A stretch of DNA of 64,000 bases from Shinella sp. SUS2 (GTDB lineage: Bacteria; Pseudomonadota; Alphaproteobacteria; Rhizobiales; Rhizobiaceae). The stretch is from NCBI RefSeq assembly GCF_001262505.1, contig NZ_KQ410734.1, positions 62,001-126,000 on the forward strand, in the 5' to 3' direction. Positions 18,879 through 62,452 of the stretch are shown here, piece by piece (the first letter of the stretch is position 1; each line of letters begins with the position of its first letter). Made by a program: the position numbers and the translations under genes. The notes under the pieces are model-generated. The model was not told the origin of the DNA. It searched no databases and was given only the letters and a program-made list of their open reading frames with translations.

Positions 18879-18880
18879 GG

Positions 18881-47096: not shown

Positions 47097-47097
47097 C

Positions 47098-48462
47098 GTG
47101 ACAGCCTGTTCCGTCATGACGAGGATTGTGGTGGCGGCCCTTGCGGCCGCCCTCGCACCCGTTTTCGCGCGGGCGGAGACCGTCTCCGTCCCCTCCGGCG
47201 CGGAGAGCCTGCAGGCGGTTCTGGATGCCGCCCGGCCGGGGGATGTGATCCGGCTGGAGGCGGGTGCGCATCGCGGTCCTCTGCTGATCGCCACGGCATT
47301 GACGCTGGAAGGCGAGGGTGGTGCGGTGCTCTCGGGTACGGGCATGGGCAGCGTCGTCACTGTCACCGCGCCCGGCGCAGTAGTGCGCGGGCTTGAAATC
47401 CAGGGTTCCGGCACGGATATCGGCGCGCTCGATTCCGGCGTCTTCCTTGACAAGACCGCGACCGGAGCGATTGTCGAGAACAATCGGATCATCGGCAATC
47501 TCTACGGCGTCTATATACGGGGCGCCAAGGACGCGATGGTGCGCGACAACCGGATCGAGGGCATGCGCGAGGGGCGCTCGGCGGAGGCCGGTAACGGCGT
47601 GCACCTGTGGAATGCGCCGGGGGCGAAGGTGATCGGCAACGACATCCGCTTCGGCCGTGACGGCATCTTCACCAATGCCAGCCGTCGCAACGTCTTTTCC
47701 GGCAACCGCATGCGCGACCTGCGTTTTGCCATCCACTACATGTATACGAATGAAAGCGAGATCAGCGACAACGTCTCGACCGGCAATTCCGTCGGTTACG
47801 CCATCATGTATTCCGACCGCCTGACCATCACCGGCAATGTCTCCGATGGCGATCGCGATCACGGGCTGCTGCTCAACACCGCGAAGGGCTCGACGGTCTC
47901 CGGCAACCGGGTGAAGGGACGGATGCAGCCGGTTTCCCGCTGGATCAATGCCGGCCGCCAGAGCGACACACACGGTGTGACCATGGAGAGCGATGCCGGT
48001 CACGACGTTGCGGACCAGCGCCTCGGCCCGGAAAAATGCGTCTTCATCTACAATGCCAACCGCAACCGCTTTTCCGGCAACCGCTTCGAGAATTGCGCGA
48101 TCGGCATCCATTTCACGGCGGGTTCCGAGGGCAACCGCATGAGCGGCAATGCCTTCATCCGCAACCGCAATCAGGTCAAGTATGTCGGCACGCGTTACCT
48201 CGACTGGTCGGCGGAAGGGCGCGGCAACTACTGGAGCGACAACCCCGCCTTCGATCTCGACGGCGACGGTATCGCCGATACGCCTTACCGGCCGAACGAT
48301 CTCGTCGACCGGGTTCTGTGGACCGCGCCGCAGGCGAAAATCCTCACCAACAGTCCGGCCGTGCAGGTTATCCGCTGGGCGCAGAACCAGTTTCCGGCGC
48401 TCCTGCCCGGCGGCGTGGTCGACAGCCGCCCGCTGATGGCCCCGCCGGACGAAGGAATGTGA
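47098..48462 (+). CDS. nosD: NosD, periplasmic copper-insertion protein
   Basis: A 454-residue secreted right-handed beta-helix protein of the NosD/CASH family that works with NosFY to assemble the CuZ centre. A signal peptide (VVAALAAALAPVFARA) is followed by repeated beta-helix rungs with the recurring GN-R/I pattern (VSGNRVKGRM, FSGNRFENC, MSGNAFIRN). The likely start is GTG 47098, one base after the nosZ stop; ATG 47116 would give a shorter signal peptide. Neither has a strong ribosome binding site, suggesting coupling to nosZ translation. Confidence 0.93.
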   Translation: MTACSVMTRIVVAALAAALAPVFARAETVSVPSGAESLQAVLDAARPGDVIRLEAGAHRGPLLIATALTLEGEGGAVLSGTGMGSVVTVTAPGAVVRGLEIQGSGTDIGALDSGVFLDKTATGAIVENNRIIGNLYGVYIRGAKDAMVRDNRIEGMREGRSAEAGNGVHLWNAPGAKVIGNDIRFGRDGIFTNASRRNVFSGNRMRDLRFAIHYMYTNESEISDNVSTGNSVGYAIMYSDRLTITGNVSDGDRDHGLLLNTAKGSTVSGNRVKGRMQPVSRWINAGRQSDTHGVTMESDAGHDVADQRLGPEKCVFIYNANRNRFSGNRFENCAIGIHFTAGSEGNRMSGNAFIRNRNQVKYVGTRYLDWSAEGRGNYWSDNPAFDLDGDGIADTPYRPNDLVDRVLWTAPQAKILTNSPAVQVIRWAQNQFPALLPGGVVDSRPLMAPPDEGM

Positions 48463-48467
48463 ATGCC

Positions 48468-49370
48468 ATGACCCACCGCATCGACATCCAGGCTGTTTCC
48501 AAGGCCTTCGGCGCCTTCAAGGCCGTACGCGACGTTTCCTTCTCGCTCGCCGAAGGCGAGATCGTAGCGCTGGTCGGCCACAACGGCGCGGGCAAGACGA
48601 CGCTGATCAAGCTGATGCTCGGCCTTCTCCGCCCGACCGCCGGCACCGTTCGTGTGCTCGGGGGCGATCCGGCGGCTGATCCTGCCGTGCGGGCGCATCT
48701 CGGCTACCTGCCGGAAAGCGTGTCCTTCAATCCGGCCCTGACCGGCCGCGAGACGCTGGCCTTCTATGCTGCGCTGAAGCGCGCGCCGCACCGCCAGATC
48801 ATCGAGTTGCTCGAACGGGTCGGTCTGGCACAGGCCGCCGACCGGCGCGTGCGCACCTATTCCAAGGGCATGCGGCAGCGGCTCGGGCTGGCGCAGGCGC
48901 TGCTCGGCGCGCCGCAGGTCCTCCTGCTCGACGAGCCGACGACCGGCCTCGACCCTGCGCTCCGCCGCGATTTCTATGGTTTCCTCGACGAACTGCGCGC
49001 AGGCGGCGCGACGATCCTGCTTTCCTCCCATGCGCTCAGCGAGCTGGAGGGACGGGCCGACCACATCGTTATCATGGGGCAGGGCGTCAAGATCGCGGAT
49101 GGCTCGCTGGATGCGCTGCGCGGCATCGCGCGGCTGCCGACGCGCATCCGCGTGCGCCTTGCCGAGGGCGAGGAAAGACGGCTTGAAGGGGACGCGAATT
49201 GGCGCTCGGTCAACGGCCACATGCTGGAGATAGAGGCTGCGCCGGAGGACAAGGTGGCGCTGCTGCGCGCCGCCGTCGGTGCCCGCATCGCCGATCTCGA
49301 CGTGACGCCGCCGACGCTCGACGAACTCTACGCCCATTTCCAGGACAGGCAGCGGGAGGCCGGCCAATGA
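48468..49370 (+). CDS. nosF: NosF, ABC ATPase for nitrous oxide reductase maturation
   Basis: A 300-residue ATPase with Walker A GHNGAGKTTLIK, signature YSKGMRQRLGLAQAL and Walker B VLLLDEPTTGLD. It pairs with NosY to drive sulfur or copper supply for the CuZ cluster through NosD. ATG 48468 begins 5 bp after the nosD stop; GTG 48459, in the same frame and overlapping nosD, is possible because AAGGA is closer to it. Its stop overlaps the nosY start. Confidence 0.95.
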   Translation: MTHRIDIQAVSKAFGAFKAVRDVSFSLAEGEIVALVGHNGAGKTTLIKLMLGLLRPTAGTVRVLGGDPAADPAVRAHLGYLPESVSFNPALTGRETLAFYAALKRAPHRQIIELLERVGLAQAADRRVRTYSKGMRQRLGLAQALLGAPQVLLLDEPTTGLDPALRRDFYGFLDELRAGGATILLSSHALSELEGRADHIVIMGQGVKIADGSLDALRGIARLPTRIRVRLAEGEERRLEGDANWRSVNGHMLEIEAAPEDKVALLRAAVGARIADLDVTPPTLDELYAHFQDRQREAGQ

Positions 49371-50182
49371 GGACCATCCTCGTCATCGCGCGCAAGGAAA
49401 TCCAGGAGGGCCTGCGCAATCGTTGGGTCCTCGCGACCACGCTGCTTCTGGCCACACTTGCGCTCACCCTCACCTTTCTCGGCAGCGCGCCCACCGGCAA
49501 TGTCGGGGCAAGCGCGCTCGATGTGATCGTCGTCAGCCTGTCGAGCCTGTCGGTGTTTCTCGTGCCGCTTATCGCGCTCCTCATCTCGCACGACGCCATC
49601 GTCGGGGAGGCGGAACGGGGCACGCTCCTCCTGCTGCTCAGCTATCCGCTGGCGCGTTTCCAGGTGATCGCCGGCAAGTTCATCGGGCATCTGGCAATCC
49701 TCGCTTTCGCAACGTTCATCGGCTACGGCGCGGCGGCGCTGGCGCTCGGCCTTGGCGGTAGCGCCGGGCTCGTCGCCGGCTGGCCGGCCTTCGTGCTCCT
49801 GATCGGTTCCTCGGTGCTGCTCGGCGCGGTCTTCATCGCCATCGGCTATCTCGTCAGCACGCTCGCCGGCGAGCGCGGTACTGCGGGCGGCATTGCCGTC
49901 GGTGTCTGGCTCGTCTTCGTGCTGGTCTACGACATGGCGCTGCTCGGCCTTCTGGTCGCCGACCAGGGGCGCGCGGTCACAGGCGGGCTGCTCAATGCCC
50001 TCCTTCTGCTCAACCCGACCGATGCCTACCGCCTGCTCAATCTCGGCGGTGAGGCGGGGGCGATCTCCGGCATGGCCGGCGCGGCCTCGCTCAGTGCGCC
50101 AGCGCTTGCCGCTGCGCTCGTGCTGTGGGTAGCGCTGCCGCTTGCTGCCGCCATGCTGGTCTTTTCAAGGAGAGAGGCATGA
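49367..50182 (+). CDS. nosY: NosY, membrane permease for nitrous oxide reductase maturation
   Basis: A 271-residue inner-membrane protein with six transmembrane helices of the ABC-2 type. It begins MRTILVIARKEIQEGLRN, typical of NosY and related ABC-2 permeases. ATGA overlaps with both the preceding nosF and the following nosL indicate tight translational coupling. GGGAGG lies 8 nt upstream of the start. Confidence 0.95.
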   Translation: MRTILVIARKEIQEGLRNRWVLATTLLLATLALTLTFLGSAPTGNVGASALDVIVVSLSSLSVFLVPLIALLISHDAIVGEAERGTLLLLLSYPLARFQVIAGKFIGHLAILAFATFIGYGAAALALGLGGSAGLVAGWPAFVLLIGSSVLLGAVFIAIGYLVSTLAGERGTAGGIAVGVWLVFVLVYDMALLGLLVADQGRAVTGGLLNALLLLNPTDAYRLLNLGGEAGAISGMAGAASLSAPALAAALVLWVALPLAAAMLVFSRREA

Positions 50183-50712
50183 AGCGCATCCTCGCCACCC
50201 TCGTTCTCGTCCTCGTCGCGGGCTGCTCGGAACAGCAGGCCGAGACGCCGCAGCCTTTCGCCCTGACGCAGGAGGCGATCGGTCGCTATTGCGGCATGAA
50301 CGTGCTCGAGCACGAAGGCCCCAAGGGCCAGATCATCCTGTCGCAGATCCCCGAGCCGATCTGGTTCTCCTCGGCGCGCGATGCGGTCGCCTTCACGCTC
50401 CTGCCGGACGAGCCGAAAGCCATCGCCGCCATCTATGTGTCCGATATGGGCGCTGCAGCGAGCTGGGCGCAGCCCGGTGCGGAAAACTGGATCGACGCCC
50501 GCACCGCCTTTTATGTGATCGGCAGCACGCAGCGTGGTGGCATGGGTGTCGCCGAGACCATTCCCTTTTCCAGGGAAAGGGACGCGCGCGACTTTGCCGG
50601 AAAACATGGCGGCGAGGTGGTCGTCTTCCCGGATATTCCATCTGGCTATGTGCTGGGTGACGGTCAGGCGAACGACGGCGCCGACCAGCAGCGTGAGGAG
50701 GCGGAACAATGA
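50179..50712 (+). CDS. nosL: NosL, copper chaperone lipoprotein
   Basis: A 177-residue outer-membrane lipoprotein. The signal peptide ends in the lipobox LVAGC (Cys17 in the counted sequence). The CGMNVLEHEGPKGQI segment contains the Cys-x-Met copper-binding motif of NosL, and a later Met/Trp-rich part follows. It delivers copper(I) to apo-NosZ or NosD. The highly acidic C terminus (DGQANDGADQQREEAEQ) is an extension. It is coupled to nosY and nosX by ATGA overlaps. Confidence 0.94.
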   Translation: MKRILATLVLVLVAGCSEQQAETPQPFALTQEAIGRYCGMNVLEHEGPKGQIILSQIPEPIWFSSARDAVAFTLLPDEPKAIAAIYVSDMGAAASWAQPGAENWIDARTAFYVIGSTQRGGMGVAETIPFSRERDARDFAGKHGGEVVVFPDIPSGYVLGDGQANDGADQQREEAEQ

Positions 50713-51686
50713 TCAAGGGTGCAAGGCCGACCCGTCGCCGTTTCATAAGCCTTTCAGCCGCGGCCGCCGGCACGGCGCACTGCCCGCTCGGCGCTCGCGC
50801 CGGGTCTGCGGCTGTCCGCTGGCGCGGCCGTGCCCTTGGCGCCCCGGCGGAAATGATCCTGCATCATCCCGACCGGGCACAAGCCGAACGGCTGATCCGG
50901 CGTGTCGTCGTCGAGATCGATCGCCTCGAGCACATTTTCAGCCTGTACCGGCCGGATTCCGCGCTTGCGACGCTGAATGCCCGGGGTGCGCTCGCCGATC
51001 CGCCGGTAGAACTGATAGAGCTGCTGGAACAGAGCCATGCCGTCTGGGCGCTGAGCGGCGGCATGTTCGATCCCACCGTCCAGCCCTTGTGGCTGCTGCA
51101 TGCCCGGCACTTCTCGACTCCCGACGCCGACCCAGCCGGCCCCCCGCGCGACAGCATCGAGGCGGTATTGGCGCGCATAGGCTTCGAGCATGTCGCCTTC
51201 GACCGCAACCGTATCGCCTTTCGCAGGCCGGGCATGGGGCTGACGCTGAACGGTGTCGCGCAGGGCTATATCACCGATCGGGCGGTGGACATCCTGCGCG
51301 CCGGCGGTGTGTTACATACGCTCGCCGATCTCGGTGAGGTACGCGCCCTCGGGCCGCGTGAGAACGGCACACCCTGGCACGCTGGTATCGCCGGGACAGA
51401 TATACGCGTCGATCTCGTAAACCGCGCGATCGCGACCTCCGGAACGAACGGTTTCCGCTTTGCCGGGCCGGGCTCTCCGAGCCATCTGCTCGATCCCAGA
51501 ACCGGTGTTTCGGCTGGCCGTCATGACAGCGTCAGCGTCGTCGCGCCGACCGCTGCAGCCGCCGACGCTCTTTCCACGGCCTTCAGCTTCATGGATGGCG
51601 ACGGGATCGTGACAGCGCTGCGGGCACTTCCGGCAACGCAGGTGCATTTGCATGAGCCGGACGGCAGCTATCGGCATATCGTCTGA
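50709..51686 (+). CDS. nosX: NosX, periplasmic FAD:protein FMN transferase (ApbE family)
   Basis: A 325-residue Tat-exported protein (RRRFISLSAAAAG) of the ApbE family. Typical motifs are LEHIFSLYRPDSALATLN, GMGLTLNGVAQGYITDRA, LADLGEVRALG and DSVSVVAPTAAAADALST with the metal-binding Asp/Thr residues. It attaches FMN to the threonine in the SGATVT motif of NosR, which is encoded in the same operon. Last gene of nosRZDFYLX, converging on the diguanylate cyclase gene 45 bp later. Confidence 0.94.
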   Translation: MIKGARPTRRRFISLSAAAAGTAHCPLGARAGSAAVRWRGRALGAPAEMILHHPDRAQAERLIRRVVVEIDRLEHIFSLYRPDSALATLNARGALADPPVELIELLEQSHAVWALSGGMFDPTVQPLWLLHARHFSTPDADPAGPPRDSIEAVLARIGFEHVAFDRNRIAFRRPGMGLTLNGVAQGYITDRAVDILRAGGVLHTLADLGEVRALGPRENGTPWHAGIAGTDIRVDLVNRAIATSGTNGFRFAGPGSPSHLLDPRTGVSAGRHDSVSVVAPTAAAADALSTAFSFMDGDGIVTALRALPATQVHLHEPDGSYRHIV

Positions 51687-51731: not shown

Positions 51732-53030
51732 TCAGGCGCCGAGCATCACGACACGGTTGCGGCCCGTCCGTTTGGCTTCATAGAGTGCATTGTCTGCCCT
51801 GAGGATCGCCGAGCCGAAGGGTTCGTCCGATGGGTCCGCAAGCGTGGCGCCGATGCTGACGCTGACTGGGATCACGGCGCCTTCGATATCGAAGGGCGAA
51901 GCATGGATCGCCATGCGGATGCGCTCAGCCAGTGTCACGGCCGCTACCGGCTCCTCGGCTGCCAGCAAGACCGCGAATTCCTCGCCGCCAAGCCGTGCAA
52001 AACGGTCGCCCGATCGCACGACCTCCTGGCAGCGACGGGCGAACTCCATGAGAACAAGGTCGCCTGCGCGGTGGCCATGCGTGTCGTTGATCGATTTGAA
52101 ATGATCGATATCCAGCATGAGCACGCCCATGGACGCCGCGCCGCTCGATCTGGAGAATATCTCTTCCGCTTCCTCGAAGAAGCGTCGGCGGTTGAGGATC
52201 CCGGTCAGCGGGTCGGCATTGGCAAGCACCTTGAGCTGCTCGGCATAGGCGCGCTCCTTCGTCACGTCGATGTAGAGATTGACGTTGAAGTTGCCGACCG
52301 TCCTTTGCCGGAACTGGATGCGCTTCGTCGCGCCGCTGGCCGTCCTGACGTCGAGATCGAAGGGCGTCATCTCGCGGTTCTCGCGCCGGGCGTCTGCGAT
52401 CGAGGAATGCCATTGTGTGCGGGCATATTCGCGGTATTGCGGATCGGGATAGACGAGGCGCCACCAGTCCTCGATGCTTTCGATCTCGTCCTGAGTATAG
52501 CCGAAAAGCGCCTTGAACGTCGAATTGGCGAACTGGATCTGGTCGTCGCTGCTGGCGATTTCGAAGCCGAAGGGCAGCCAGTCCAGAAGCGAGATCATCT
52601 GTTCCTGCCAGCCGGCAAGGGAGACGGAACCCTGCGGCGGCGCATCCGTGAAGGTGAACAGGCGCACGAGTTCGCCCTCGATCGCGATCTTGGTGACCTG
52701 CACCATCAGCACGCGTTCCTGCGCCTGCACCATGGCCCGGATCAGGAAAGGCTCGCCCGGCACGCCGATCGGCGCGACGCTCCATATCTGCGAGAGGAGA
52801 ATGCTCGCCTCGCGACCGACGAGATCTTCGATGGGCAGGTTCTCGAAGGCTTCCAACCCCAGTCCGAACAGGACCGCGGCATTGGAATTGGCCCGGCGCA
52901 CATGCAGCGTGCCCTTCTCGACAAGGACCATCGGTGCACCAACACAGCCCATCCAGAAATCGACGTCCTCACGGGACCTGCCGTAGGGAACATCGTCTGT
53001 CTTGGTTCGCTGCGACGCTGTACTGCTCAT
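51732..53030 (-). CDS. PAS-containing diguanylate cyclase (GGDEF)
   Basis: A 432-residue soluble signalling protein. Two PAS-like sensor domains (about residues 15-130 and 150-265) precede a GGDEF domain (about 270-430) whose active site reads FARLGGEEFAVLL, the active GGEEF variant, with a nearby DIDHFKSINDTHGH. It should make cyclic di-GMP from two GTP. No RxxD inhibitory site is evident five residues before GGEEF. The start at 53030 is the first plausible ATG but lacks a strong ribosome binding site; a longer frame to 53171 is possible. No membrane segment. Confidence 0.88.
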   Translation of the reverse strand: MSSTASQRTKTDDVPYGRSREDVDFWMGCVGAPMVLVEKGTLHVRRANSNAAVLFGLGLEAFENLPIEDLVGREASILLSQIWSVAPIGVPGEPFLIRAMVQAQERVLMVQVTKIAIEGELVRLFTFTDAPPQGSVSLAGWQEQMISLLDWLPFGFEIASSDDQIQFANSTFKALFGYTQDEIESIEDWWRLVYPDPQYREYARTQWHSSIADARRENREMTPFDLDVRTASGATKRIQFRQRTVGNFNVNLYIDVTKERAYAEQLKVLANADPLTGILNRRRFFEEAEEIFSRSSGAASMGVLMLDIDHFKSINDTHGHRAGDLVLMEFARRCQEVVRSGDRFARLGGEEFAVLLAAEEPVAAVTLAERIRMAIHASPFDIEGAVIPVSVSIGATLADPSDEPFGSAILRADNALYEAKRTGRNRVVMLGA

Positions 53031-53235
53031 GCGATCCGATACCCATCGTCCTCTGTGCAAGGCCACAGAGACCTTCCGTGCCCGAAGATAGTCACCTAAC
53101 GTAAGAAAAGGCTTAAGCGCCCGCAGATTCCATCTGGCCAAGCCTTCTGCGTTTTCCGACGCTTGCAGCAACGCAGTGCCCTCTCATGCGCAAAACGGTG
53201 GCGTCTAGGTCATGCCGGCATTTTTAGGGGTGGGG

Positions 53236-53251
53236 CGCATTGCGAAATGCG
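53236..53251. promoter_or_regulatory. Dyad in the leader of the YheO-type regulator
   Basis: CGCATT-GCGA-AATGCG is a perfect 6-bp inverted repeat about 77 bp upstream of the chosen regulator start. It lies in the 297-bp stretch shared with the diguanylate cyclase promoter, where I see no gene. Possible autoregulatory operator. Confidence 0.35.
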
Positions 53252-53327
53252 ATAGTCCGTGAGCAAAAGGATTTCGGGAAGATCCCGGTCCCCCCCGACG
53301 GACGGCCGCAGCCAAGCGAGAACTCAA

Positions 53328-53972
53328 ATGCCGCAACGAGACAAAGACGCAGACGTCGCCATGCCCTCCGATGCGCTGAGGACATATCATCCGGTCTGCG
53401 ATGCGATTGCGCTCATCCTGCAGCCCTATGCGGAGGTGGTTCTCCACGATCTCTCCAGCGAGACGGTGAGCTACATCGCCAACAACTTCTCCAAGCGGGA
53501 TCTCGGGGAACCGTCGCTGCTGCACGAAATCGACTTCAAGCCGAACGACCGGACGATCGGGCCTTATGAAAAGGTGAATTTCGACGGAAGGCGGCTGAAA
53601 TCGGTGAGCGCGGTGTTGCGCGCGCTCGATGACCGGGCGATCGCCATCCTGTGTATCAACATCGACGTTTCGCACATCCAGTCTGCGATCCAGGTGCTGA
53701 GCGCCATGTCCACTGTCTCCATCGACCAAGGCAAGCCCGCTGCCCTGTTCAAGGAAGACTGGCATGAGCGGGTCAACGAATATGTGCACGGCTGGACGAC
53801 GAAGCGGGGCCTTATGATCGCTGACCTCACCCGGGCGCAGAAACAGCAGCTTGTGCGCGAGCTGGCCGAAGACGGCGCCTTCAGCGGAAAGCATGCGGCT
53901 GCCTATATCTCGAAGATCCTGCAGATGGGCCGGGCGACGGTTTACAACTACCTTCGCGACACGAAAGCCTGA
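53328..53972 (+). CDS. YheO/DauR-type PAS-helix-turn-helix regulator
   Basis: A 214-residue regulator with an N-terminal YheO-like PAS domain (YHPVCDAIALILQPYAEVVL, residues about 15-125) and a C-terminal helix-turn-helix (SGKHAAAYISKILQMGRATVYNYLRD). DauR, the best-known member, controls D-arginine catabolism in Pseudomonas, where one partner enzyme is an ornithine-cyclodeaminase homologue; such an enzyme also occurs in the cluster here. ATG 53328 was chosen for a GCGAG 7 nt upstream; GTG 53259 and ATG 53361 are alternatives. It converges on the catabolic operon it probably controls. Confidence 0.85.
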   Translation: MPQRDKDADVAMPSDALRTYHPVCDAIALILQPYAEVVLHDLSSETVSYIANNFSKRDLGEPSLLHEIDFKPNDRTIGPYEKVNFDGRRLKSVSAVLRALDDRAIAILCINIDVSHIQSAIQVLSAMSTVSIDQGKPAALFKEDWHERVNEYVHGWTTKRGLMIADLTRAQKQQLVRELAEDGAFSGKHAAAYISKILQMGRATVYNYLRDTKA

Positions 53973-53989
53973 GCCCCGAACGGCAGAAG

Positions 53990-54008
53990 GGGCGCCCGCG
54001 GGGCGCCC
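53990..54008. terminator. GC-rich hairpin between convergent genes
   Basis: GGGCGCCC-GCG-GGGCGCCC is a perfect 8-bp stem between the YheO-type regulator and the dehydratase-like gene. No T tract follows, so termination efficiency is uncertain. Confidence 0.5.
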
Positions 54009-54033
54009 TCTGTGGTGGCGGTCGAGCGGGCGA

Positions 54034-54999
54034 TCAGCGGCCGTAGATCGCCTGTGTGATGACATCGCGGTCAAAATTCGCGCCGCAAAGCAGGATCACG
54101 CTCGTCTGGCCGGAAAGGCTGGCTGCAACCTTTTCGAAGCCGGCAAGCGCAAGGGCGGCCGAACCCTCGACGATCATGTTCTCCTCGAGAGCGAGTGTTT
54201 TCAGCGCGGCGCGGATGTCGTCCTCGCCGCATTCGACGACCTCGTCCACGGCCGCCATCGAAAGAGGCAGCGTGATCGTATCGAGATCGATGCCGCCGGC
54301 GACGGCATCGGCGAGCGTCTCGTGATGCTCGGTCTCGACCACGCGGCCGGCCGCTATCGATGCCGCAAGCGCCTTCGAATGGCTCGCGGCGACGCCGTAG
54401 AGCTTCGTGCGCGGGCTGAAGGCCTTGAGCACCGCACCGATGCCGCTGATCAGGCCGCCGCCGCCCATCGCGACGAAGACATTGTCGACGCCGGCACACT
54501 GTTCGAGGATTTCGAGCGCGATCGTGCCCTGGCCGGCGACGATATCGGGATCGTTGTACGGCGAGACATAGGCGTGCCCTTCGGAGGCAGCGCGTTCCTG
54601 GGCGTGCTGTTCGGCAAGGCCGGTCTCCTCGCCGTGCAGGATGACCTCGACGCCGTAGGAGCGGATCTTCTCAAGCTTGGCGGGCACGACGGTCTGCGGC
54701 AGCACGACGGTGAGGCTGCGGGAAAGCGCCTTGGAGGCATGCGCCGCACCGATGCCGTGGTTGCCGGACGAGGCGGTGATCAGCCGCCCGCCCGCGGGCT
54801 GGGCGGACATTTTCGACATTGCGCCCCTGATCTTGAAGGATCCGGTGAGCTGGAAGTTCTCTGCCTTGAAGAGCACCGTCGCGCCTTCGGCCTTTCCGGC
54901 CTTGCGGGCGGGCAGGAGCGGTGTCTGGTAGATATGGTCACGAATGCGGGCCCTTGCCCGGACGGCGGCGGCCGCGGTTTCGAAGACGATGGTCTGCAT
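54034..54999 (-). CDS. Threonine-dehydratase-like PLP enzyme (EutB/hydroxyaspartate dehydratase type)
   Basis: A 321-residue fold-type II PLP enzyme. The Schiff-base Lys56 lies in TGSFKIRGAM, the substrate loop is TASSGNHGIGAA, and the phosphate-binding glycine loop is MGGGGLISGIG. No C-terminal ACT domain is present, so it is a catabolic form. Related proteins are threonine/serine dehydratases, threo-3-hydroxyaspartate dehydratase and the EutB proteins of ectoine utilisation. It is the last gene of the leftward transport/catabolism cluster, 14 bp after the ATPase, with GAGGAAA before its ATG. The substrate cannot be assigned. Confidence 0.82.
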   Translation of the reverse strand: MQTIVFETAAAAVRARARIRDHIYQTPLLPARKAGKAEGATVLFKAENFQLTGSFKIRGAMSKMSAQPAGGRLITASSGNHGIGAAHASKALSRSLTVVLPQTVVPAKLEKIRSYGVEVILHGEETGLAEQHAQERAASEGHAYVSPYNDPDIVAGQGTIALEILEQCAGVDNVFVAMGGGGLISGIGAVLKAFSPRTKLYGVAASHSKALAASIAAGRVVETEHHETLADAVAGGIDLDTITLPLSMAAVDEVVECGEDDIRAALKTLALEENMIVEGSAALALAGFEKVAASLSGQTSVILLCGANFDRDVITQAIYGR

Positions 55000-55013
55000 G
55001 GTTTCCTCGCTGG

Positions 55014-55745
55014 TCAGTGTTGCGGCCCGATTTGTCGAAGGAATTCCTTCGTACGGGCATGGGATGGATGACGGAAGAACGTTTCGGGATCCGCCTCTTC
55101 GAGGATCGTTCCGCGGTCCATGAAGACGATGCGGTCCGCCACGCTTCGCGCGAAGCCCATTTCGTGGGTCACGACGATCATCGTGAGGCCCTGGCGGGAA
55201 AGGTCCGTCATGACGTCGAGTACCTCCTTGACCATTTCCGGGTCGAGGGCGGAGGTGGGCTCGTCGAACAGCAGGACCTTCGGCTTCATGCACAGGGCGC
55301 GCGCGATCGCCACACGCTGCTGTTGTCCACCGCTGAGCTGACGCGGATAGTTGTCCGCCTTTTCCGTCAGCTGCATGCGCGCCAGCATCGCCAGCGCCTC
55401 TTCTTCAGCTACCAGGCGTGGTGTCCGGCGTACCCGCCGCATGGCGAGCGTCAGGTTGTCCAGAACCGTCAGATGTGGAAAGAGGTTGAACTGCTGGAAG
55501 ACCATACCGACGTCGCCGGCAAGCGCCAGCACGTTGGCGCAGTCGGCTGAAAGGCTGTGGCCGGCGATTTCCACGGTGCCACCCTGCCGTTCCTCCAGCC
55601 CGTTCAGGCAGCGTACCAAGGTCGATTTGCCAGAACCGGAAGGCCCGCATAGGACGATGCGCTCGCCGGCCGTAACCTTCAAGCTGACCCCGTGCAGGAC
55701 TTGCGCCGCGCCATAGGATTTGACCAGGTTTTCCGCGATGATCAT
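55014..55745 (-). CDS. Polar amino acid ABC transporter ATP-binding protein (GlnQ/HisP type)
   Basis: A 243-residue ATPase with Walker [13 protein letters not shown], signature [15 protein letters not shown], Walker [15 protein letters not shown] and [15 protein letters not shown], the last being distinctive of the polar amino acid family. Its ATG overlaps the stop of the second permease. Part of a complete importer: binding protein, two permeases and ATPase in order on the minus strand. Confidence 0.95.
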
Positions 55746-56488
55746 GACGAGGCTCCAAGGGTGGGTGAGCGCGGGTGCACCGTACGGCCGCTCCTGCCGA
55801 TAGCGGCGGCTCCCGGAATGCGGCGCTCGAGAAAGCGGAAGGCGACGCCGAACAGGAAACCGATCGCGAGATAGAGGATGCCGGCGACGATGAAGACCTC
55901 GAAGGGTGCGTAGGTTTTCGCCGTGAAGGCGCGTGCCGCTCCCGACATTTCCATGACCGTGACGGCGCTCGCCAGCGAGCTGGCCTTCAGCACAAGGATC
56001 AGTTCGTTGCCGATCGAAGGCAGGATCGCCCGGTAGACCTGCGGCAGGAGCACATCGCGCATGCGGCTGAAGCCTGAGAGACCGAGCGAGATGGAGGCCT
56101 CCGCCTGGCCGGGTGGAAGCCGCCTCAGTCCGCCGGCGACGATCACGGCGACATAGGCTGCGGAATTGAGGCCGATGGCGATGATGGCGCAGTTCACGGG
56201 CTCGCGGATGATCGGCCAGATCACGCTGGCGCGCACCGCATCGAACTGGGCGAGGCCGTAGTAGAGGATGAAGAGCTGAACGAGGAGGGGGCTGCCGCGC
56301 ACGAGGAACGTATAGATCGTTACCGGCCAGCGCAGCAACGGGGATTTCGCTGTTAGCCCCAGCCCGAGCGGCAGGGCGAGGATCTGGCCGAGTAGGAAGC
56401 TGGCCAGGGTGACGACCAGGGTCAGCTTCAGGCCGGCATAGACGATGGGGATGGACTGCAGGAGGATCTCGGAGGACATGGTGCTCAC
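55742..56488 (-). CDS. Polar amino acid ABC transporter permease 2
   Basis: A 248-residue HisMQ-type inner-membrane permease. Family hallmarks are [19 protein letters not shown] and the EAA loop [20 protein letters not shown]. The GTG at 56488 overlaps the upstream permease stop (GTGA); the ATG nine bases downstream (56479) is an alternative start. It forms a heterodimer with the neighbouring permease. Confidence 0.93.
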
Positions 56489-57150
56489 CGTCCGACCGTC
56501 AGGCGTCGATTGCCATAGGCAAAGATCGCCATGGAGACGCTGGTGATGGCCACATAGAGGCCGGCGACGATGAGGTAGAAGGTCATGGGCGATTGCGTCG
56601 CGCCTGCCGCCACGACGCCCTTGCGCATCAGCTCCTCAAGCCCGACGATCGAAACCAGCGCGCTTTCCTTGAGAATGATGAGCCATTGGTTGCCGAGACC
56701 GGGCAGGGCATAGGCGAACATCTGCGGCAGGATGACATGCCGAAAGGTTGCGCCGGCGCCAAGGCCGAGGCTCTTGGCCGCTTCCGCCTGGCCGGGCGGG
56801 ATCGTGTGGAGCGCGCCGCGCAGAATCTCTGTGAGATAGGCGCCGGAAACGAAGGAGAGTGCACAGATACCGGCGGTCAGCGCATCCACCTCGACATAGG
56901 CGCCGAATATCCTGCTGAGGAGAACCGTGCCGCCGTAGAAGACGAGGAAGATGACGAGCAGTTCCGGAAGGCCGCGGATGACGGTGACATAAGTGGAGAC
57001 GCACCAGCGCACCGGCGCATTGCCGAACTCGGCACCGAACACCGCCGCAACGGCAATCACGAGGCCGATGGCAAAACTTCCGAAAGCCACTTCGAGCGTG
57101 ACGAGCAACCCTTCCAGCAAATGTGGAAGATAAGCGAGGATAAGAGACAT
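56485..57150 (-). CDS. Polar amino acid ABC transporter permease 1
   Basis: A 221-residue HisMQ-type permease with [20 protein letters not shown] and the EAA loop [19 protein letters not shown]. About five transmembrane helices. It follows the binding-protein gene by 57 bp and is coupled to the second permease through overlapping start and stop codons. Confidence 0.93.
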
Positions 57151-57207
57151 GGGTCGACCCTGGGGGCCATGCGCCGCATCTGGCGCGAGGCATGGCCCTG
57201 TCCGCTG

Positions 57208-57990
57208 TTAGCCCTTGAAGGAAAGATCGTAGCCGAAGAATTTGGTCGAGATCTTCCCGATCGTTCCATCGGAGATCATGTCGACGATGGCCTTGTCGAC
57301 GCGGGCTTTCAGCTCCTCCCGGCCCTGCTTCAGGGCGATGCCCTGCCCGTTGCCGAATTCGGAATAGTCGGCGCTGGTCAGCATCGGGCCGGCAAGCTCA
57401 AGCTTGCCCTCGCGAGCCTTCATCAGTTCCTCCCAAACCGACTGCTCGAGAAGGCCGGCATCGATGCGGCCAGCGGCCAGGTCGTCGGCGATCTGCTCGT
57501 TGCGCTCATAGAGACGAACGTCGGCATTCTTGAAGTATTTGTTGGCCACGGCCTCGTGGGTCGAACCGGTCTGCACGCCGATCGCCTTGCCTTCCAGCGC
57601 GGCCTCGAGTTCCGCCTTCGTCTTGGCGACAGCGAGCGCGCCGCCCTTGACGGTTGCGATGTGATAGGGCGCATCGGCATAGGCTTTTGAGAAATCCACT
57701 TGTTTTGCCCGCTCGGCGGTGATCGAGAGGCCGGAAATCACGAGGTCGAACTTGCCGACCTGAAGGCTTGCCAAGAGTCCATCGAAGGACTGGTTCGTCC
57801 AGGCGCAGTCTGCGCCGATGCGCTTGCAGATCTCGTCACCGACCTCGCGGTCGAAGCCGACGATATCGCCTGCCGTATTCGTATAGCCCCATGGCGGGAA
57901 GTCGGCGCTGGTGCCGATGCGCAGCGGCTCTGCACCGGCGCTCCCGGCGACGATGGCGGCAAAGACGGATGCAATTGCTAGGATTTTCAT
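57208..57990 (-). CDS. Polar amino acid ABC transporter binding protein
   Basis: A 260-residue periplasmic protein (signal MKILAIASVFAAIVAGSAG, cleavage near AGA-EP) of SBP_bac_3, the lysine/arginine/ornithine/opine-binding family. The start of the mature protein, LRIGTSADFPPWGYTN, the GFDREVGDEICKRIG helix and LVISGLSITAERAKQVDFS are diagnostic. Acidic residues in the cleft positions suggest a cationic or polar ligand. GGGGAA precedes the ATG. It follows the OCD-like gene by 48 bp. Octopine/nopaline-type, lysine/arginine-type and ectoine-type binders all look similar at this level. Confidence 0.92.
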   Translation of the reverse strand: MKILAIASVFAAIVAGSAGAEPLRIGTSADFPPWGYTNTAGDIVGFDREVGDEICKRIGADCAWTNQSFDGLLASLQVGKFDLVISGLSITAERAKQVDFSKAYADAPYHIATVKGGALAVAKTKAELEAALEGKAIGVQTGSTHEAVANKYFKNADVRLYERNEQIADDLAAGRIDAGLLEQSVWEELMKAREGKLELAGPMLTSADYSEFGNGQGIALKQGREELKARVDKAIVDMISDGTIGKISTKFFGYDLSFKG

Positions 57991-58038
57991 GTCATTCCCC
58001 TTTTCAGTGATGGTTTCTCTAGGTCGGCCCGGCGAAGA

Positions 58039-59013
58039 TCAGGTCGCGGCCCGGATGTCCAATCCGGCGACCCGCTCCAGCGCGGTTCTGGCCATGGCGA
58101 TATCCTGGGTGGCGACCCCGGTGAGATCGGCGATCGTGATCTGCGAAACGGCCTTGCGTCCGCGTGCACGCCCGGAAAGGATGAGGCCGAGCTCGATGCA
58201 GTCCTCTGCCTTGATCAGCCCTGCGGCGAAGGCACCGGCGAACTCGCCATGTTCCAGACATTGACGGGCGAGATCGACCGCCAGCACATTGGCGCGGGCG
58301 ACGAGCTCGACCGCCAACTCCTGTTTGCCCGGCGCGTCGGCACCCATGGCGGTGATATGCGTGCCTTGCCGGATCCAGTCGGCTTCGATGAGTGGATGGG
58401 CCGAGGGCGTCGTGGTGACGATGACATCGGAGGTGCGGCACATGGCTTCGAGATCGTCCGCCAGCTGGACCGGCAACCCGATCGCCGCGAGGTCCGCCTG
58501 GAGGGCTTCGGCCTTGGCACGCGAGCGACCCCAGACATTGATCGTGATCGGCCGGCCGGCGAGGGCGGCCATGGCCCTCGCCTGAAAGCGGGCCTGCGTG
58601 CCGGTGCCGACGACGGAGAAGGTTTCGGCATCGTCGCGGCAGAGGGCGAAGGTAGCAACGGCGCCGCCGATGCCGGTTCTCAGATCGGTCAGCCAGCCCT
58701 CGTCGTTCAGTGTGGCGATCACCCGGCCGGTCTCGGCCGAGACGGCGACGATAATGCCGTTGCTCGATGGCAATCCCTTGGACGGGTTGTCGTAGAAGCC
58801 TGCGGCGATCTTCACGACGAAGACCGGATCGCCTGCGATGTAGCCGTACTTGATGTGGCAGTCGCCGTTTTTGCCGGGAAAGCCGAGATAGCCGACCGGC
58901 GGCACGTCCGCGCGCCCGTCCGATATCGCGATGTAGGCGTCCCGTATCGCCGCGATCGTTCCGGGGTCGATGCTGATGAGGTTCTGGATGTCGGAACGTG
59001 AGAGCTGGATCAT
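58039..59013 (-). CDS. Ornithine cyclodeaminase/mu-crystallin family protein
   Basis: A 324-residue NAD(P)-binding enzyme. The Rossmann motif VVGTGTQARFQARAMA at about residue 130 and the GMGADAPGKQELAVEL-type segment (ITAMGADAPGKQEL) are typical of the family. Relatives perform ornithine cyclodeamination, reduction of cyclic or linear imines (EutC-like proteins, iminosuccinate reductase BhcD, DauB) or alanine dehydrogenation. Paired with a dehydratase-like enzyme and an amino acid importer it most likely turns over an imine or amino acid intermediate. A 22-bp palindrome lies 48 bp upstream of the start. Confidence 0.85.
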   Translation of the reverse strand: MIQLSRSDIQNLISIDPGTIAAIRDAYIAISDGRADVPPVGYLGFPGKNGDCHIKYGYIAGDPVFVVKIAAGFYDNPSKGLPSSNGIIVAVSAETGRVIATLNDEGWLTDLRTGIGGAVATFALCRDDAETFSVVGTGTQARFQARAMAALAGRPITINVWGRSRAKAEALQADLAAIGLPVQLADDLEAMCRTSDVIVTTTPSAHPLIEADWIRQGTHITAMGADAPGKQELAVELVARANVLAVDLARQCLEHGEFAGAFAAGLIKAEDCIELGLILSGRARGRKAVSQITIADLTGVATQDIAMARTALERVAGLDIRAAT

Positions 59014-59060
59014 GGGCTTCCCGCCTTTTCAGGCAATCAAGGTTTGCAGCCCGCTCCGTT

Positions 59061-59082
59061 CGGGCACGACATGTCGTGCCCG
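59061..59082. promoter_or_regulatory. 22-bp perfect palindrome upstream of the OCD-like gene
   Basis: The half-site CGGGCACGACA is followed directly by its exact reverse complement. It ends 48 bp upstream of the OCD-like start codon, in the 235-bp region between this gene and the M20 gene. It may be a repressor operator. A second small dyad, TCTA-GTA-TAGA, lies at 59229-59239. No gene is present in the rest of this region. Confidence 0.7.
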
Positions 59083-59248
59083 GCGGAAACCTGGCTGGCC
59101 GCAGGTGGCGTGGATTTGTTTACGGGCGGCCGGAAGGTCTGGCCGCGGCTGCCGGAGGTGGGGCACCGCAGCGTTTCCGCGACTGGCCTTCATTCCTGCC
59201 GGGTACTATAGGAGATAAAACCAAATTGTCTAGTATAGATTTTTTTGT

Positions 59249-60418
59249 CTAATTGCTGATGTCGGCAAGCGCGGCGATCGCCGTTCCAGCAAGAAGGGTT
59301 GCTCCCGGGGCGATGATCGCGTCGTTGAAGTCGTAGGCCGGCTGATGCAGCCGGCCGTCGAAGACCGCCGGACCGTTGCCGATCCAGGCATAGGCGCCGG
59401 GGCGGTGAAGCAGGAAGAAACCGAAATCGTCGCCGGCCATCGTGGGGCGCGGGTCTCCCCGATAGGCGGCAAGGCCTGCCTCATGCACGACCGCGCGCAT
59501 GAGATCCCGTTCCGCCGGCGTGTTTGCCACCGGCGGGCACATAGGATCGTCGAAGATAAGATCGACGGCACAGGATGCAGTGGCTGCCGCGGAGGCGGCG
59601 ATGGCGCGCGTACGCTCCCGAAGCAGGGTGAGGGTCTCCATCCGGAAAGCCCGCAAGGTGCCCTTCAGGTCCGCGGACTGTGGAATGATGTTCTGGGCAT
59701 GCCCGCCGTGGAACGAACCGACGGTCGCCACGGCCGCCTCGTAGGGATCGACCGCCCGGGCGACGGCCTGCTGGAGGCCGGTGAGAAAATGCCCGCCGGC
59801 GAGCAGCGGATCGCCGGAAAGATGGGGCATCGCGGCATGCGCACCCTCGGCGCGGAAGGTGATGTCGAATTCCGATGTGCCGGCCATGACCGGCCCGTCA
59901 TGCAGCAGGACTTCGCCGGCCGGCATGTCGGGCCAGTTGTGGAGGCCGAAGATCCGTTCGAAAGGAAAGCGCTCGAGCAGCCCGTCCTCGATCATCAGCC
60001 GCGCGCCGCCGAAGCGTTCCTCCGCCGGCTGGAAGACGAGGTAGACGGTACCGGCAAAGTCCCGCGCCCGGGCGAGGAGGGTCGCTGCACCGATCAGGAT
60101 CGCGACATGTCCGTCATGGCCGCAGGCATGCATTTTGCCGGGGTTCTTCGAGGTGTAGGAGAGGCCCGTCGTCTCGCTGATCGCAAGGGCGTCCATGTCC
60201 GCGCGCAGTGCCACTGCCGGGCCGGGCGCGGCCCCTTCGATGACGCCGACGAGCCCGTTGCCGCCGATCTTCTCGTGAACCGCGATGCCGAGTGCTTCCA
60301 GCCGGTCCCGGATGAACCCTGCGGTCCAGACTTCCTCAAGCGAAAGCTCCGGATGGGCGTGCAGGGTGTGGCGGTAGGAAATCAGCGTGTTGATGTCGGC
60401 TTTGGAGAGAGTGTTCAT
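59249..60418 (-). CDS. M20-family amidohydrolase (amidohydrolase/N-acyl-amino acid deacylase)
   Basis: A 389-residue metallopeptidase-fold hydrolase of the hippurate hydrolase/IAA-amino acid hydrolase type. Metal ligands are visible in MHACGHDGHVAIL and the catalytic Glu region FQPAEERFGGARLMI, with further ligands in IFGLHNWPDMPAGEV and the terminal AGDDFGFFL. Likely reaction: release of an amino acid from an N-acyl or amide conjugate. No signal peptide, so it acts in the cytoplasm after uptake. It precedes the OCD-importer-dehydratase operon on the same strand and could perform the first catabolic step. Confidence 0.88.
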   Translation of the reverse strand: MNTLSKADINTLISYRHTLHAHPELSLEEVWTAGFIRDRLEALGIAVHEKIGGNGLVGVIEGAAPGPAVALRADMDALAISETTGLSYTSKNPGKMHACGHDGHVAILIGAATLLARARDFAGTVYLVFQPAEERFGGARLMIEDGLLERFPFERIFGLHNWPDMPAGEVLLHDGPVMAGTSEFDITFRAEGAHAAMPHLSGDPLLAGGHFLTGLQQAVARAVDPYEAAVATVGSFHGGHAQNIIPQSADLKGTLRAFRMETLTLLRERTRAIAASAAATASCAVDLIFDDPMCPPVANTPAERDLMRAVVHEAGLAAYRGDPRPTMAGDDFGFFLLHRPGAYAWIGNGPAVFDGRLHQPAYDFNDAIIAPGATLLAGTAIAALADISN

Positions 60419-60430
60419 CGGTGCCCGCGA

Positions 60431-60467
60431 ATATACGTTTCTGTCTCATCTGAACATCCTCGTATAT
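60431..60467. promoter_or_regulatory. Inverted repeat upstream of the M20 gene
   Basis: ATATACG (60431-60437) and CGTATAT (60461-60467) are exact inverse complements 23 nt apart, beginning 13 bp upstream of the M20 start codon. Candidate operator or promoter-spanning dyad. Confidence 0.4.
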
Positions 60468-60536
60468 CTCTGCGCTGATCGACTTTGCAACCGGCCTCCG
60501 TCTTTCCAGCGGGCTGCCGCCACGCTGAAAAGCGCG

Positions 60537-61421
60537 TCACCGCAGGATCAGGCGCTCCATGAGGGCCTTGAGGTCTCTCGCCACGGCGAAGCTGTCGTCC
60601 TGGTGCTGGCGCCTGCAGAAGAGTTCGCAGCTCCACCAGCCGGTATAGCCGGTCGCCTTGACGGCATCGACCCAGCTTTGGAGGTCGAGCACGCCCTTTC
60701 CGGTCGGCACGTCGCGGAGGATGGGCTCGTTCGGTATGCCACCGGCATAGTGCAGGGAATCGCAGAGGTGCACACCATAGATCTGCGCCTTGTCGAGCCG
60801 GGCGATCCGTTCCGGCGTGTCACCGCTGGTATAGGCGTGCCAGAAGTCAATGACGAGACGCACATTGTCCCGGTCGCAGCGTTCGAGCACCTGCATCTGG
60901 GCATCCATCGTGTTGAGCGGGGTCCAGGATAGCGCTTCGAGATAGACGAGTAGACCATGCGATGCGGCGATATCTGCGACGGCCCGGAGATTGGCGGCGG
61001 TGAGATCCAGCTGGGAATCTGTCGGTAGGTCGATGAGGCCACGGTAGAGGGCGGGATAGCGCTCTGCAGCGCCCGCCTCGAAAACCCGGATGTCCAGCGG
61101 GCCGGTAATGGCCTCTATCCCTTTCGCCCCGGCTGCCGATGCAAGGGCACAGAGATCTTCGGCCTCTCGCAACATCTGACGCCGGGCGTCACCCTGCCGC
61201 TCGAGGTCGATCAGGAAGCCGATGCCGGGGAGGGTGAGGCCGCCGAGTCGCGCCGTCAGTTCGGATGTGGAGAAACCGGCATCGAGGAAGGCGGCGATCT
61301 TCGGGCCGGAGGTTTCGAGGCCGTCGAAGCCCAGCTCGCGCGCGATTGCGATGTCGATCGCCAGCGTGTTCGGCCGGGAGGCCATGGAATGATAGATGAG
61401 CTGGTTTTCTGTCCGGATCAT
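60537..61421 (-). CDS. Sugar phosphate isomerase/epimerase-like TIM-barrel protein
   Basis: A 294-residue AP_endonuc_2/xylose-isomerase-like TIM barrel, the family of IolE, hydroxypyruvate isomerase and sugar epimerases. Candidate metal and catalytic residues are Glu in LVYLEALSWTPLN, Asp/His in VIDFWHAYTSGD, His in VHLCDSLHYAG and Glu in WWSCELFCRRQHQDD. It is coupled to the Gfo/Idh-like gene by an ATGA overlap, a common pairing in rhizobial sugar or inositol-derivative pathways. The substrate is unknown. Confidence 0.85.
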   Translation of the reverse strand: MIRTENQLIYHSMASRPNTLAIDIAIARELGFDGLETSGPKIAAFLDAGFSTSELTARLGGLTLPGIGFLIDLERQGDARRQMLREAEDLCALASAAGAKGIEAITGPLDIRVFEAGAAERYPALYRGLIDLPTDSQLDLTAANLRAVADIAASHGLLVYLEALSWTPLNTMDAQMQVLERCDRDNVRLVIDFWHAYTSGDTPERIARLDKAQIYGVHLCDSLHYAGGIPNEPILRDVPTGKGVLDLQSWVDAVKATGYTGWWSCELFCRRQHQDDSFAVARDLKALMERLILR

Positions 61422-62452
61422 GGATGCGAGCCTCCTGTGCTCGTCTTTGTGTCTGCGGATCCGACGGAAACGGGCCGCTTGTTTCGGGCTGCGCGGATGG
61501 CTTCCGCGGCGCGCAGTGCGATGACGTTGTCCTCGCCGAGCGCCATCCATGTTGCCGGCGTGTGCGGCAGGGCCAGGAAGGTTTCGATCGTCGTGACATG
61601 CGGGTCGCGCTCGCGTACCGGGATGAGTTCGTTCCGCCCGTTCAGCCGCCGGATCAGGGTGCCCGCTCCTTTTCCGCTCAGCGTGCCATGGGCGATCAGC
61701 GTGCCGCGATCGCCGGCAAGCATGACGATGCTTTCGAATTCCGCGGTGGTGAAACTCTCGTAGGATTGAAGCACGGCCCCGCCGGACAGGCCGGCCGCAT
61801 AGGACTGCTGGTCGGTATCGCCCTGCGCCGGCGAGGCTGAAAGGGCCGAGACGGCGACAGGCTCCTGGCCGGTGAGGAAACGCGCAAGGTCGATGCTGTC
61901 GATCGACGCCCCGAAAAGCGCATTGGCACGGTCCACCGTCTCGTCCACATGGCGGTTGGGTGGCGGTTGAAAGGGGGCGCCGCGCGCGATGAGGAGCGAC
62001 TGTAGCGTTCCGATCTCTCCTTCCAGCAGCAGCCGGCGCATGGTCTGGTGGGGCGAAAGGGTGCGGAAGGGCTGGTGGATGGCCAGCGTTATGCCCGCCG
62101 TCCGGCATGTCTCGACAAGGCTTGCGGCAAGGCGGCTGCTACCGGCGATCGGACCGTCGCACAGAACGTGTTTGCGCTGCGCCGCCGCAGCCAGGATGTA
62201 GTGCCTGCGCCGGTCGCGAACGGCGCTGACATAGGCGAAGCCGACTCGCGGATCCCGCAGTGCCCGCCGCGCCTCAAGGGAGATGCCGGGGATCTGCATG
62301 TCCTGCGAGAAATGTGCCGCATATTCCCGGTTCCGGCTGACGACCCACAGTGGCTCCTGCCCGGCCGACCGGATCGCCGCAACCATGTGCTCCGTTGTTA
62401 TGGTTCCGGTCCCCATGACGGACCACCCGACCGCTCCGCTGGACTGCACCAC
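61418..62452 (-). CDS. Gfo/Idh/MocA-family protein with atypical active site
   Basis: A 344-residue protein with the family's N-terminal Rossmann fold (GWSVMGTGTITTEHMVAAIR) and C-terminal alpha/beta domain. The usual EKP motif after the fourth strand is DGP here (KHVLCDGPIAGSS), so the conserved Lys is missing. The usual DxGxHxxD motif reads GASIDSID, with Asp in place of the catalytic His. It may use a different mechanism or serve a non-redox role beside the TIM-barrel partner. Start: GTG 62452 or the next GTG, with GAGGA just upstream. Divergent from the XRE regulator, 131 bp away. Confidence 0.82.
   Translation of the reverse strand: MVQSSGAVGWSVMGTGTITTEHMVAAIRSAGQEPLWVVSRNREYAAHFSQDMQIPGISLEARRALRDPRVGFAYVSAVRDRRRHYILAAAAQRKHVLCDGPIAGSSRLAASLVETCRTAGITLAIHQPFRTLSPHQTMRRLLLEGEIGTLQSLLIARGAPFQPPPNRHVDETVDRANALFGASIDSIDLARFLTGQEPVAVSALSASPAQGDTDQQSYAAGLSGGAVLQSYESFTTAEFESIVMLAGDRGTLIAHGTLSGKGAGTLIRRLNGRNELIPVRERDPHVTTIETFLALPHTPATWMALGEDNVIALRAAEAIRAARNKRPVSVGSADTKTSTGGSHP

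Follow-up and report, generated by a model that had tools for sequence, protein, structure and literature searches.

A gene set with a threonine-dehydratase-like enzyme, an OCD-family oxidoreductase and an amino acid importer in Shinella, apparently an undescribed variant of the EutBC-like kind

Known systems and the Shinella gene cluster

BhcB and BhcD catalyze dehydration and imine reduction of hydroxyaspartate, and the DauBAR system of D-arginine catabolism combines a YheO-type regulator with an oxidoreductase of the ornithine cyclodeaminase (OCD) family. For EutABC it has been proposed that the hydroxyl group of hydroxyectoine or hydroxy-diaminobutyrate products is removed by dehydration and reduction (excerpts of PMC13188858 and PMC5924519). 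PRK07324 enzymes share operons with COG2423 proteins under a guanidine-type riboswitch candidate (Gd4v), the ligand of which is unknown (excerpts of PMC9788692). Here, we describe an eight-gene cluster that resembles parts of all these systems. It is located in a 64,000-nucleotide stretch (the window) of the soil bacterium Shinella sp. SUS2, which covers positions 62001-126000 of contig C12 (NZ_KQ410734.1) in a Shinella-like genome of 7.0 Mb and 109 contigs. As judged from its enzyme families, the cluster may import and catabolize an N-acylated or peptide-bound amino acid with a leaving group at the beta-carbon, most likely a hydroxyl, via deacylation, beta-elimination and imine reduction, a reading to which we give only just less than an even chance. 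Apparently, it is an undescribed variant of the known EutBC-like kind, and related sets occur in many bacteria.

The minus strand carries an M20 amidohydrolase (M20), the OCD-family oxidoreductase (OCD), a substrate-binding protein (SBP), two permeases and an ATPase of an ATP-binding cassette (ABC) importer and a threonine-dehydratase-like enzyme (TD) that depends on pyridoxal phosphate (PLP). The YheO-type regulator is encoded on the plus strand, and a PAS-domain protein of the same length is annotated in Shinella sp. HZN7. An earlier sequence-only reading had named these eight genes at this place, and all of them were confirmed with coordinates and family profiles (Table 1). From M20 to TD the genes are spaced by 235, 48, 57, 5, -4 and 14 bp, and TD and the regulator converge with 61 bp between them. 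Because the gaps on the minus strand are small except for the 235 bp behind M20, OCD through TD look like one transcription unit from which M20 is set off.

The cluster shares with EutB/EutC (together with EutE) the same two enzyme families adjoining, a deacylase and a polar amino acid ABC importer. In contrast, the two enzymes form separate clades with scores below the cut-offs, EutD, EutA and a MocR regulator are missing from the set, and a YheO regulator is present instead. BhcB/BhcD also comprise a dehydratase and an imine reductase of these families, but BhcA and BhcC are not in our set, which has an importer and a deacylase in addition. As in DauBAR, a YheO-type regulator accompanies an OCD-family oxidoreductase. 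However, the cluster contains TD and, in agreement with the sequence-only reading, none of its eight genes encodes a DauA-like D-amino acid dehydrogenase according to the open reading frame (ORF) list and profile searches. The OCD relatives share their locus with a PRK07324-like enzyme in 47 of 87 loci, as in the Gd4v operons (excerpts of PMC9788692), but the present locus carries TD instead of such an enzyme and no riboswitch was found in 53000-61500, where the single match scored far under the threshold of its family.

Profile searches in NCBIfam gave scores below the cut-offs for both enzymes. For OCD the best model was PRK06823 (326.2 bits, cut-off 438), and the EutC model TIGR02992 (261.2 bits, cut-off 471.65) and the BhcD model NF045643 (170.4 bits, cut-off 500) scored lower. 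For TD we obtained 308.8 bits with the best model PRK06815 (cut-off 371), 214.8 and 245.7 bits with the EutB models TIGR02991 (cut-off 413.35) and NF005680 (cut-off 413) and 193.4 bits with the BhcB model NF045641 (cut-off 550). M20 passed the cut-off of TIGR01891 (341 bits, cut-off 153.75) and fell below that of the DoeB2 model (307.5 bits, cut-off 550). Among relatives of solved structure, alanine dehydrogenase was the best for OCD, and threonine dehydratases outscored serine and aspartate racemases for TD. A separate ectoine cluster lies on contig C10 of this genome, and all seven of its scored genes (EhuR, EhuA, EhuB, EutB, EutC, EutD, EutE; EhuC, EhuD and EutA were outside this scoring) exceeded their cut-offs. 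There, EutC reached 579 bits, EutB 534.8 and 525.5 bits and EutD 824.7 bits, and this EutD hydrolase has no equivalent among our eight genes. BhcD had no match in the genome at 1e-100.

Quick phylogenetic searches, in which long branches were flagged, gave a similar picture. The window OCD falls into a set of 17 rows (support 98) that contains no EutC row, and a branch with support 93 places the wider OCD clade next to the EutC side. TD is found in sets of 3, 13 and 23 rows (supports 98, 96 and 100) without EutB or BhcB rows, and the four BhcB rows group by themselves with support. Sequences that shared more than 88% identity or did not comply with the length limits had been removed beforehand, and because of this filtering the OCD tree includes only one BhcD row. 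A K-[IV]-[AS]-x-G-F-[YF]-x-N stretch is common to EutC and to most of the OCD-clade rows shown, including the window OCD, but it is not present in the BhcD row.

Because the scores are far below the cut-offs, the clades are separate and the ectoine cluster lies elsewhere in the genome, the two enzymes do not fall inside one characterized pathway clade. Membership in the ectoine or beta-hydroxyaspartate pathway, which the sequence-only reading had already doubted, was rejected on these grounds together with the lack of a BhcD match at 1e-100. OCD and TD look like a third lineage of the pair type represented by EutB/EutC and BhcB/BhcD, in which beta-elimination would be followed by imine reduction. 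The earlier suggestion of a possibly undescribed pathway agrees with our search of the open-access literature (many subscription papers are outside it), which gave no description of the gene set.

Table 1. Genes and candidate operators of the cluster (window coordinates)
Feature	Position	Strand	Remarks
M20 amidohydrolase, probable N-acyl amino acid deacylase	59249..60418	-	TIGR01891, PF01546; first gene
OCD/mu-crystallin family oxidoreductase, probable imine reductase	58039..59013	-	PF02423 (186 bits); PRK06823; quick tree: clade next to EutC
SBP, periplasmic, polar amino acid ABC importer	57208..57990	-	PF00497
ABC permease, ArtQ/HisQ-like	56485..57150	-	NCBIfam profile search
ABC permease, ArtM/HisM-like	about 55742..56479	-	start placed as in HZN7; ORF open from 56488
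ABC ATPase, GlnQ/EhuA-like	55014..55745	-	NCBIfam profile search
TD, fold-type II PLP enzyme (threonine-dehydratase-like)	54034..54999	-	PF00291 (251 bits); PRK06815; quick tree: clade apart from EutB and BhcB
YheO-type regulator (PAS_6 + HTH_22)	53328..53972	+	PF08348 + PF13309
Two degenerate TRGAC-N6-GTCYA copies, candidate operator	59236-59251 (1 mismatch), 59217-59232 (2 mismatches)		adjacent, between M20 and OCD
Two degenerate TRGAC-N6-GTCYA copies, candidate operator	60432-60447, 60451-60466 (2 mismatches each)		immediately upstream of M20

Conservation of the gene set and a shared palindrome

A 10.8 kb stretch that holds the cluster is 90% identical to plasmid pShin-04 of Shinella sp. 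HZN7. The eight genes occur in identical order in this strain, in Agrobacterium tumefaciens Q15/94 and in Shinella granuli, and since they keep their order in other genomes, the cluster is more than a chance assembly. The set recurs as a unit in other genomes, which supports the sequence-only reading. All eight genes were also matched, with the regulator moved, in a Mesorhizobium metagenome-assembled genome (MAG; L045), in Aquamicrobium defluvii (L048) and in two Labrys genomes (L046, L047). In Mesorhizobium caraganae (L044) there was no match for the SBP or a permease between OCD and the ATPase.

For a wider comparison we used 87 loci, the best 80 of 369 relatives from a scan of genome contigs plus seven plasmid loci, which are an uneven sample with many near relatives or short contigs. 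Genes were counted within about 6.5 kb of OCD, and gene calls in unannotated loci came from a rough script that missed some genes. TD was present in 44 of these loci when counted at tblastn E-values up to 1e-20 irrespective of identity, so that the 44 include distant ones; at 50% identity or more it was seen in 32 loci. A companion PLP enzyme, which is PRK07324-like and kin to GntC and VioD, was counted in 47/87 loci by combining a blastp cluster, taken over the entire locus, with a tblastn threshold close to OCD. Either TD or the companion enzyme was found in 81 loci and both in 10, and the YheO regulator was matched in 51. An M20 of the TIGR01891 type was present in 16/87 loci, always together with TD. 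The notion of "one unit" seems to apply to the tightly packed genes from OCD to TD rather than to M20, which is spaced apart and was matched in so few related loci. For the same reasons, the core is rather OCD with TD or another PLP enzyme, often accompanied by the regulator.

The arrangement of this putative core varies. Several Rhodobacteraceae have the layout M20-OCD-TD. Ensifer has regulator-OCD-TD, next to which, in the one locus read, lies a transporter that by eye resembles tripartite tricarboxylate transporters (TTT-like). Rhizobium, Pararhizobium and Bosea show the order companion-regulator-OCD, and roseobacters carry companion, OCD and TD in some cases and companion and OCD in others. 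The trio of TD, OCD and regulator was also seen in a further genome of the same phylum (L141), and many matches came from rhizobia. In an even sample of the class, TD kin at 1e-75 were found in 3 of 289 genomes including our own, and OCD was adjacent in one of the other two only.

The upstream regions have an inverted repeat in common. The palindrome TRGAC-N6-GTCYA was drawn from upstream stretches of 33/87 loci (six of the 33 within coding sequence) and was then counted over all of them. It can be seen that 17 of the 20 exact matches found over all 87 loci (1,370,261 bp) lie at most 300 bp upstream of a core gene, a count that is descriptive because the motif was derived from part of the same loci. 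These 17 sites come from 16 loci of about seven lineages; two of the 16 loci (L054, L081) had not been viewed beforehand, and such upstream space makes up 5.4% of the sequence. Relatives carry palindrome copies upstream of OCD or M20, and at our locus the degenerate copy at 60432-60447 aligns with its counterparts in HZN7, S. granuli, Agrobacterium and M. caraganae. The window contains 66 matches with up to two mismatches versus 43.4 expected, and the two degenerate copies between M20 and OCD are weak when taken alone.

Accessory genes of the related loci

PRK07324 was the best model for all four companion enzymes tested, followed by GntC and VioD in second and third place. One of the four passed the PRK07324 cut-off, and all four remained under the cut-offs for GntC and VioD. 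In the one companion enzyme aligned, the position of GntC E9 is kept; in P0006 the positions of GntC N52, T84 and H250 are occupied by Y, A and I (hand count on the alignment). The companion enzyme was not found at the present locus, and the best relative in this genome shares 38% identity with it and lies on another contig. On contig C3 of the same genome (L172, 7276-9065), the gene for another PLP enzyme related to the companion (33% identity) overlaps that of a YheO-type regulator, and because of this overlap the pairing of PLP enzyme and YheO regulator is broader than the present cluster. In Bosea and a Rhizobiales isolate (L069, L070, L072), an argininosuccinate lyase-like gene was seen by eye near the companion-regulator-OCD set, and in L069 (2816-5965) a fusion of phosphotransferase and class III aminotransferase (PRK06148, 1371 bits) adjoins the companion enzyme.

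Ureohydrolase or deiminase-like neighbor genes were observed in L036, L043, L107 and L117. The ureohydrolase neighbors are those of HZN7, S. granuli and a gammaproteobacterial MAG (3/87 loci), and the deiminase-like gene of L117 matches PF04371 and remains below both agmatine deiminase cut-offs. As a step of the pathway, the agmatinase-like neighbor of HZN7 is weakened by its 91% ortholog in our genome, which lies on contig C27 among other genes. A canavanine gamma-lyase pathway was set aside because its operon is not known to contain TD or OCD. It had been considered for the GntC/VioD kinship of the companion enzyme and for the canavanyl-tRNA deacylase CtdA, which guards canavanine users (excerpts of PMC10018355).

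An AlaX-like family of about 296 residues was found in 6/87 loci (L044, L056, L057, L058, L060 and L055, where the contig end cuts the gene), and all six are among the 16 with M20. The gene also occurs on plasmid pRPC1 of Rhizobium BG4 (L135) together with TD, OCD, M20 and a second TD- and OCD-like gene. Eight plasmid records match the family, several of them without such neighbors. When searched with the Pfam tRNA_SAD profile, the L044 protein scored 27.6 bits (cut-off 24), the L134 protein remained below the cut-off and those of L056, L058, L060 and L135 gave no match. The residues H141, H145, C262 and H266 (L044 numbering) are invariant in ten aligned rows, and their spacing is that of the AlaX metal site. 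Sequence comparison with solved structures gave weak matches only (best E 0.026). The predicted fold (pLDDT 84.4) had 13 structure matches at E up to 0.001, all of them to chains of alanyl-tRNA synthetase (AlaRS) or AlaX-like proteins (query TM-scores 0.47 to 0.54). Our genome including the window had no match at 1e-5, and neither had the 289-genome class sample at 1e-20, a negative result that by itself shows nothing. By analogy with the canavanyl-tRNA deacylase, the AlaX-like editor in six M20 loci hints that the amino acid handled may be a toxic mimic that is charged to tRNA. On plasmid p5 of Azospirillum argentinense (L134, 6113-7015), an AlaX-like gene lies within a nonribosomal peptide synthetase/polyketide synthase (NRPS/PKS) biosynthetic cluster next to genes for a diiron oxygenase, a beta-hydroxylase-domain protein and a class III aminotransferase, where its product possibly serves self-protection against a toxic product.

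Different deacylases stand beside the core. An ArgE-type enzyme was found in 5/87 loci (the one scored passes the cut-off), a dipeptidase-type M20 in three (the one scored falls below the subfamily cut-offs) and an AstE/AspA-type enzyme in two (one scored), and a DUF2817 protein was seen once outside the 87 loci in Rhizobium BG4. This variety fits a substrate that would arrive acylated or within a peptide, and other reasons for the neighborhood are possible. During ectoine breakdown, N-acetyl-diaminobutyrate arises as such an acylated compound (excerpts of PMC13188858).

Elsewhere in the window, genes of phosphonate catabolism (12318-14851 and 16613-20896; PhnW 566.7 bits, phosphonoacetate hydrolase PhnA 534 bits) are followed by genes that look ABC importer-like by eye. 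A nitrous oxide reductase cluster extends over 42851-51686 (NosR-like 806.5 bits, cut-off 1000; TAT-type NosZ 1131 bits), with more nos genes recognized by eye.

Predicted pathway and alternative explanations

From the observed families, gene linkage, clades and palindrome we infer the following reactions and the binding of the regulator. The ABC importer would take up an N-acylated or peptide-bound amino acid, from which M20 would strip the acyl group. As a fold-type II enzyme, TD would use PLP to eliminate the beta-hydroxyl as water, and the resulting enamine would tautomerize to an alpha-imino acid. Kinship with EutC, BhcD and alanine dehydrogenase suggests that OCD with NAD(P)H would reduce this imine to an ordinary L-amino acid before it hydrolyzes. 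The YheO-type regulator, in turn, may control the unit via the TRGAC-N6-GTCYA-like palindromes, the position and recurrence of which were observed in relatives. Since TD and OCD seem to represent a third lineage of the pair, the best supported reaction sequence appears to be that M20 releases a beta-hydroxy amino acid, which is dehydrated and then reduced at the imine stage. A hydroxy-diamino acid is the favored substrate class because EutB/EutC are the nearest characterized relatives in the trees. The sequence-only reading had proposed an N-acylated or D-configured hydroxy- or diamino acid; its N-acylated part is still the best guess, but nothing we saw favors D over L.

Several observations weigh against this pathway. 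Fold-type II enzymes also racemize or cleave C-N bonds, and the EutABC steps that serve as its model have not been biochemically evaluated (excerpts of PMC5924519). Among the 87 loci, six have neither PLP enzyme (L083, L085, L087, L101, L113, L121), 36 lack a match for the YheO regulator and 71 lack one for this type of M20. The relation of the GntC/VioD-like companion to TD is left unexplained by the model. The presence of an AlaX-type editor points to an amino acid of the size of alanine or serine, with which a hydroxy-diamino acid agrees only loosely. The exact palindrome was not found in the window, where only degenerate copies occur at the two expected promoters, and the five exact sites of the whole genome, none of them at the cluster, compare with 52 for the reversed control pattern.

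In an alternative scheme, M20 would free a beta-amino-substituted alanine, TD would form 2-aminoacrylate by expelling the beta-nitrogen, and alanine would result from reduction of the imine by OCD. Candidate substrates are 2,3-diaminopropionate, beta-N-methylaminoalanine (BMAA), oxalyl-diaminopropionate and plant ureido- or guanidino-alanine. The AlaX-like gene in six M20 loci matches the mischarging of an alanine-like toxin, alanine dehydrogenase is the best solved relative of OCD and many matches come from rhizobia. However, no diaminopropionate ammonia-lyase is among the best 25 of the 36 NCBIfam models matching TD, and catabolism does not require reduction of aminoacrylate. We regard this scheme as unlikely. 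Somewhat harder to credit is an arginine analog such as 3-hydroxyarginine, from which TD or the GntC/VioD-like enzyme would eliminate the hydroxyl and OCD would reduce iminoarginine to arginine. The GntC/VioD kinship of the companion with its retained E9 position, the PRK07324 + COG2423 operons under the Gd4v candidate (excerpts of PMC9788692), the ureohydrolase or deiminase-like neighbors and the SBP, whose best relatives of solved structure are the LAO and nopaline binding proteins, all point in this direction. Yet the companion is missing here and scores below the GntC and VioD cut-offs in all four cases, the three other GntC positions are not kept in P0006, the HZN7 ureohydrolase has its ortholog on another contig, and the SBP has a serine in 8/8 aligned orthologs at the site of Asp11 in LAO. 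The guanidino lead is weak, and neither it nor the lead to small beta-amino-alanines is decisive.

Handling of a D-amino acid, with TD as a serine/aspartate-type racemase and OCD as an amino acid dehydrogenase, appears improbable. Both racemases are among the solved relatives of TD and the YheO regulators include DauR of D-arginine catabolism, but threonine dehydratases score higher, the eight genes include no D-amino acid dehydrogenase and AlaX-type editors act on L-aminoacyl-tRNA. We give least credence, and very little, to a divergent ectoine or beta-hydroxyaspartate cluster: enzyme families and module logic are shared, but the scores far under the cut-offs, the separate clades, the ectoine cluster on contig C10 with all seven scored genes above their cut-offs and the lack of a BhcD match in the genome at 1e-100 argue against it.

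In its broader form, the preferred reading of deacylation, beta-elimination and imine reduction would describe a widespread, undescribed pathway of catabolism and detoxification for a toxic non-protein amino acid, consisting of an importer, a variable deacylase, a beta-eliminating PLP enzyme, an imine reductase, its own regulator with operator and, in some lineages, an AlaX-like editor that clears mischarged tRNA as CtdA does for canavanine. This extension is tentative, and we rate its chance as appreciable but below even. If it is true, dehydratase plus imine reductase would be a combination in general use among bacteria for beta-substituted amino acids, with at least three lineages. The SBP, the operator and, in relatives, the tRNA editor should then answer to one molecule, which offers a route to the substrate, and the PRK07324/COG2423 link might help to name the ligand of the Gd4v riboswitch candidate.

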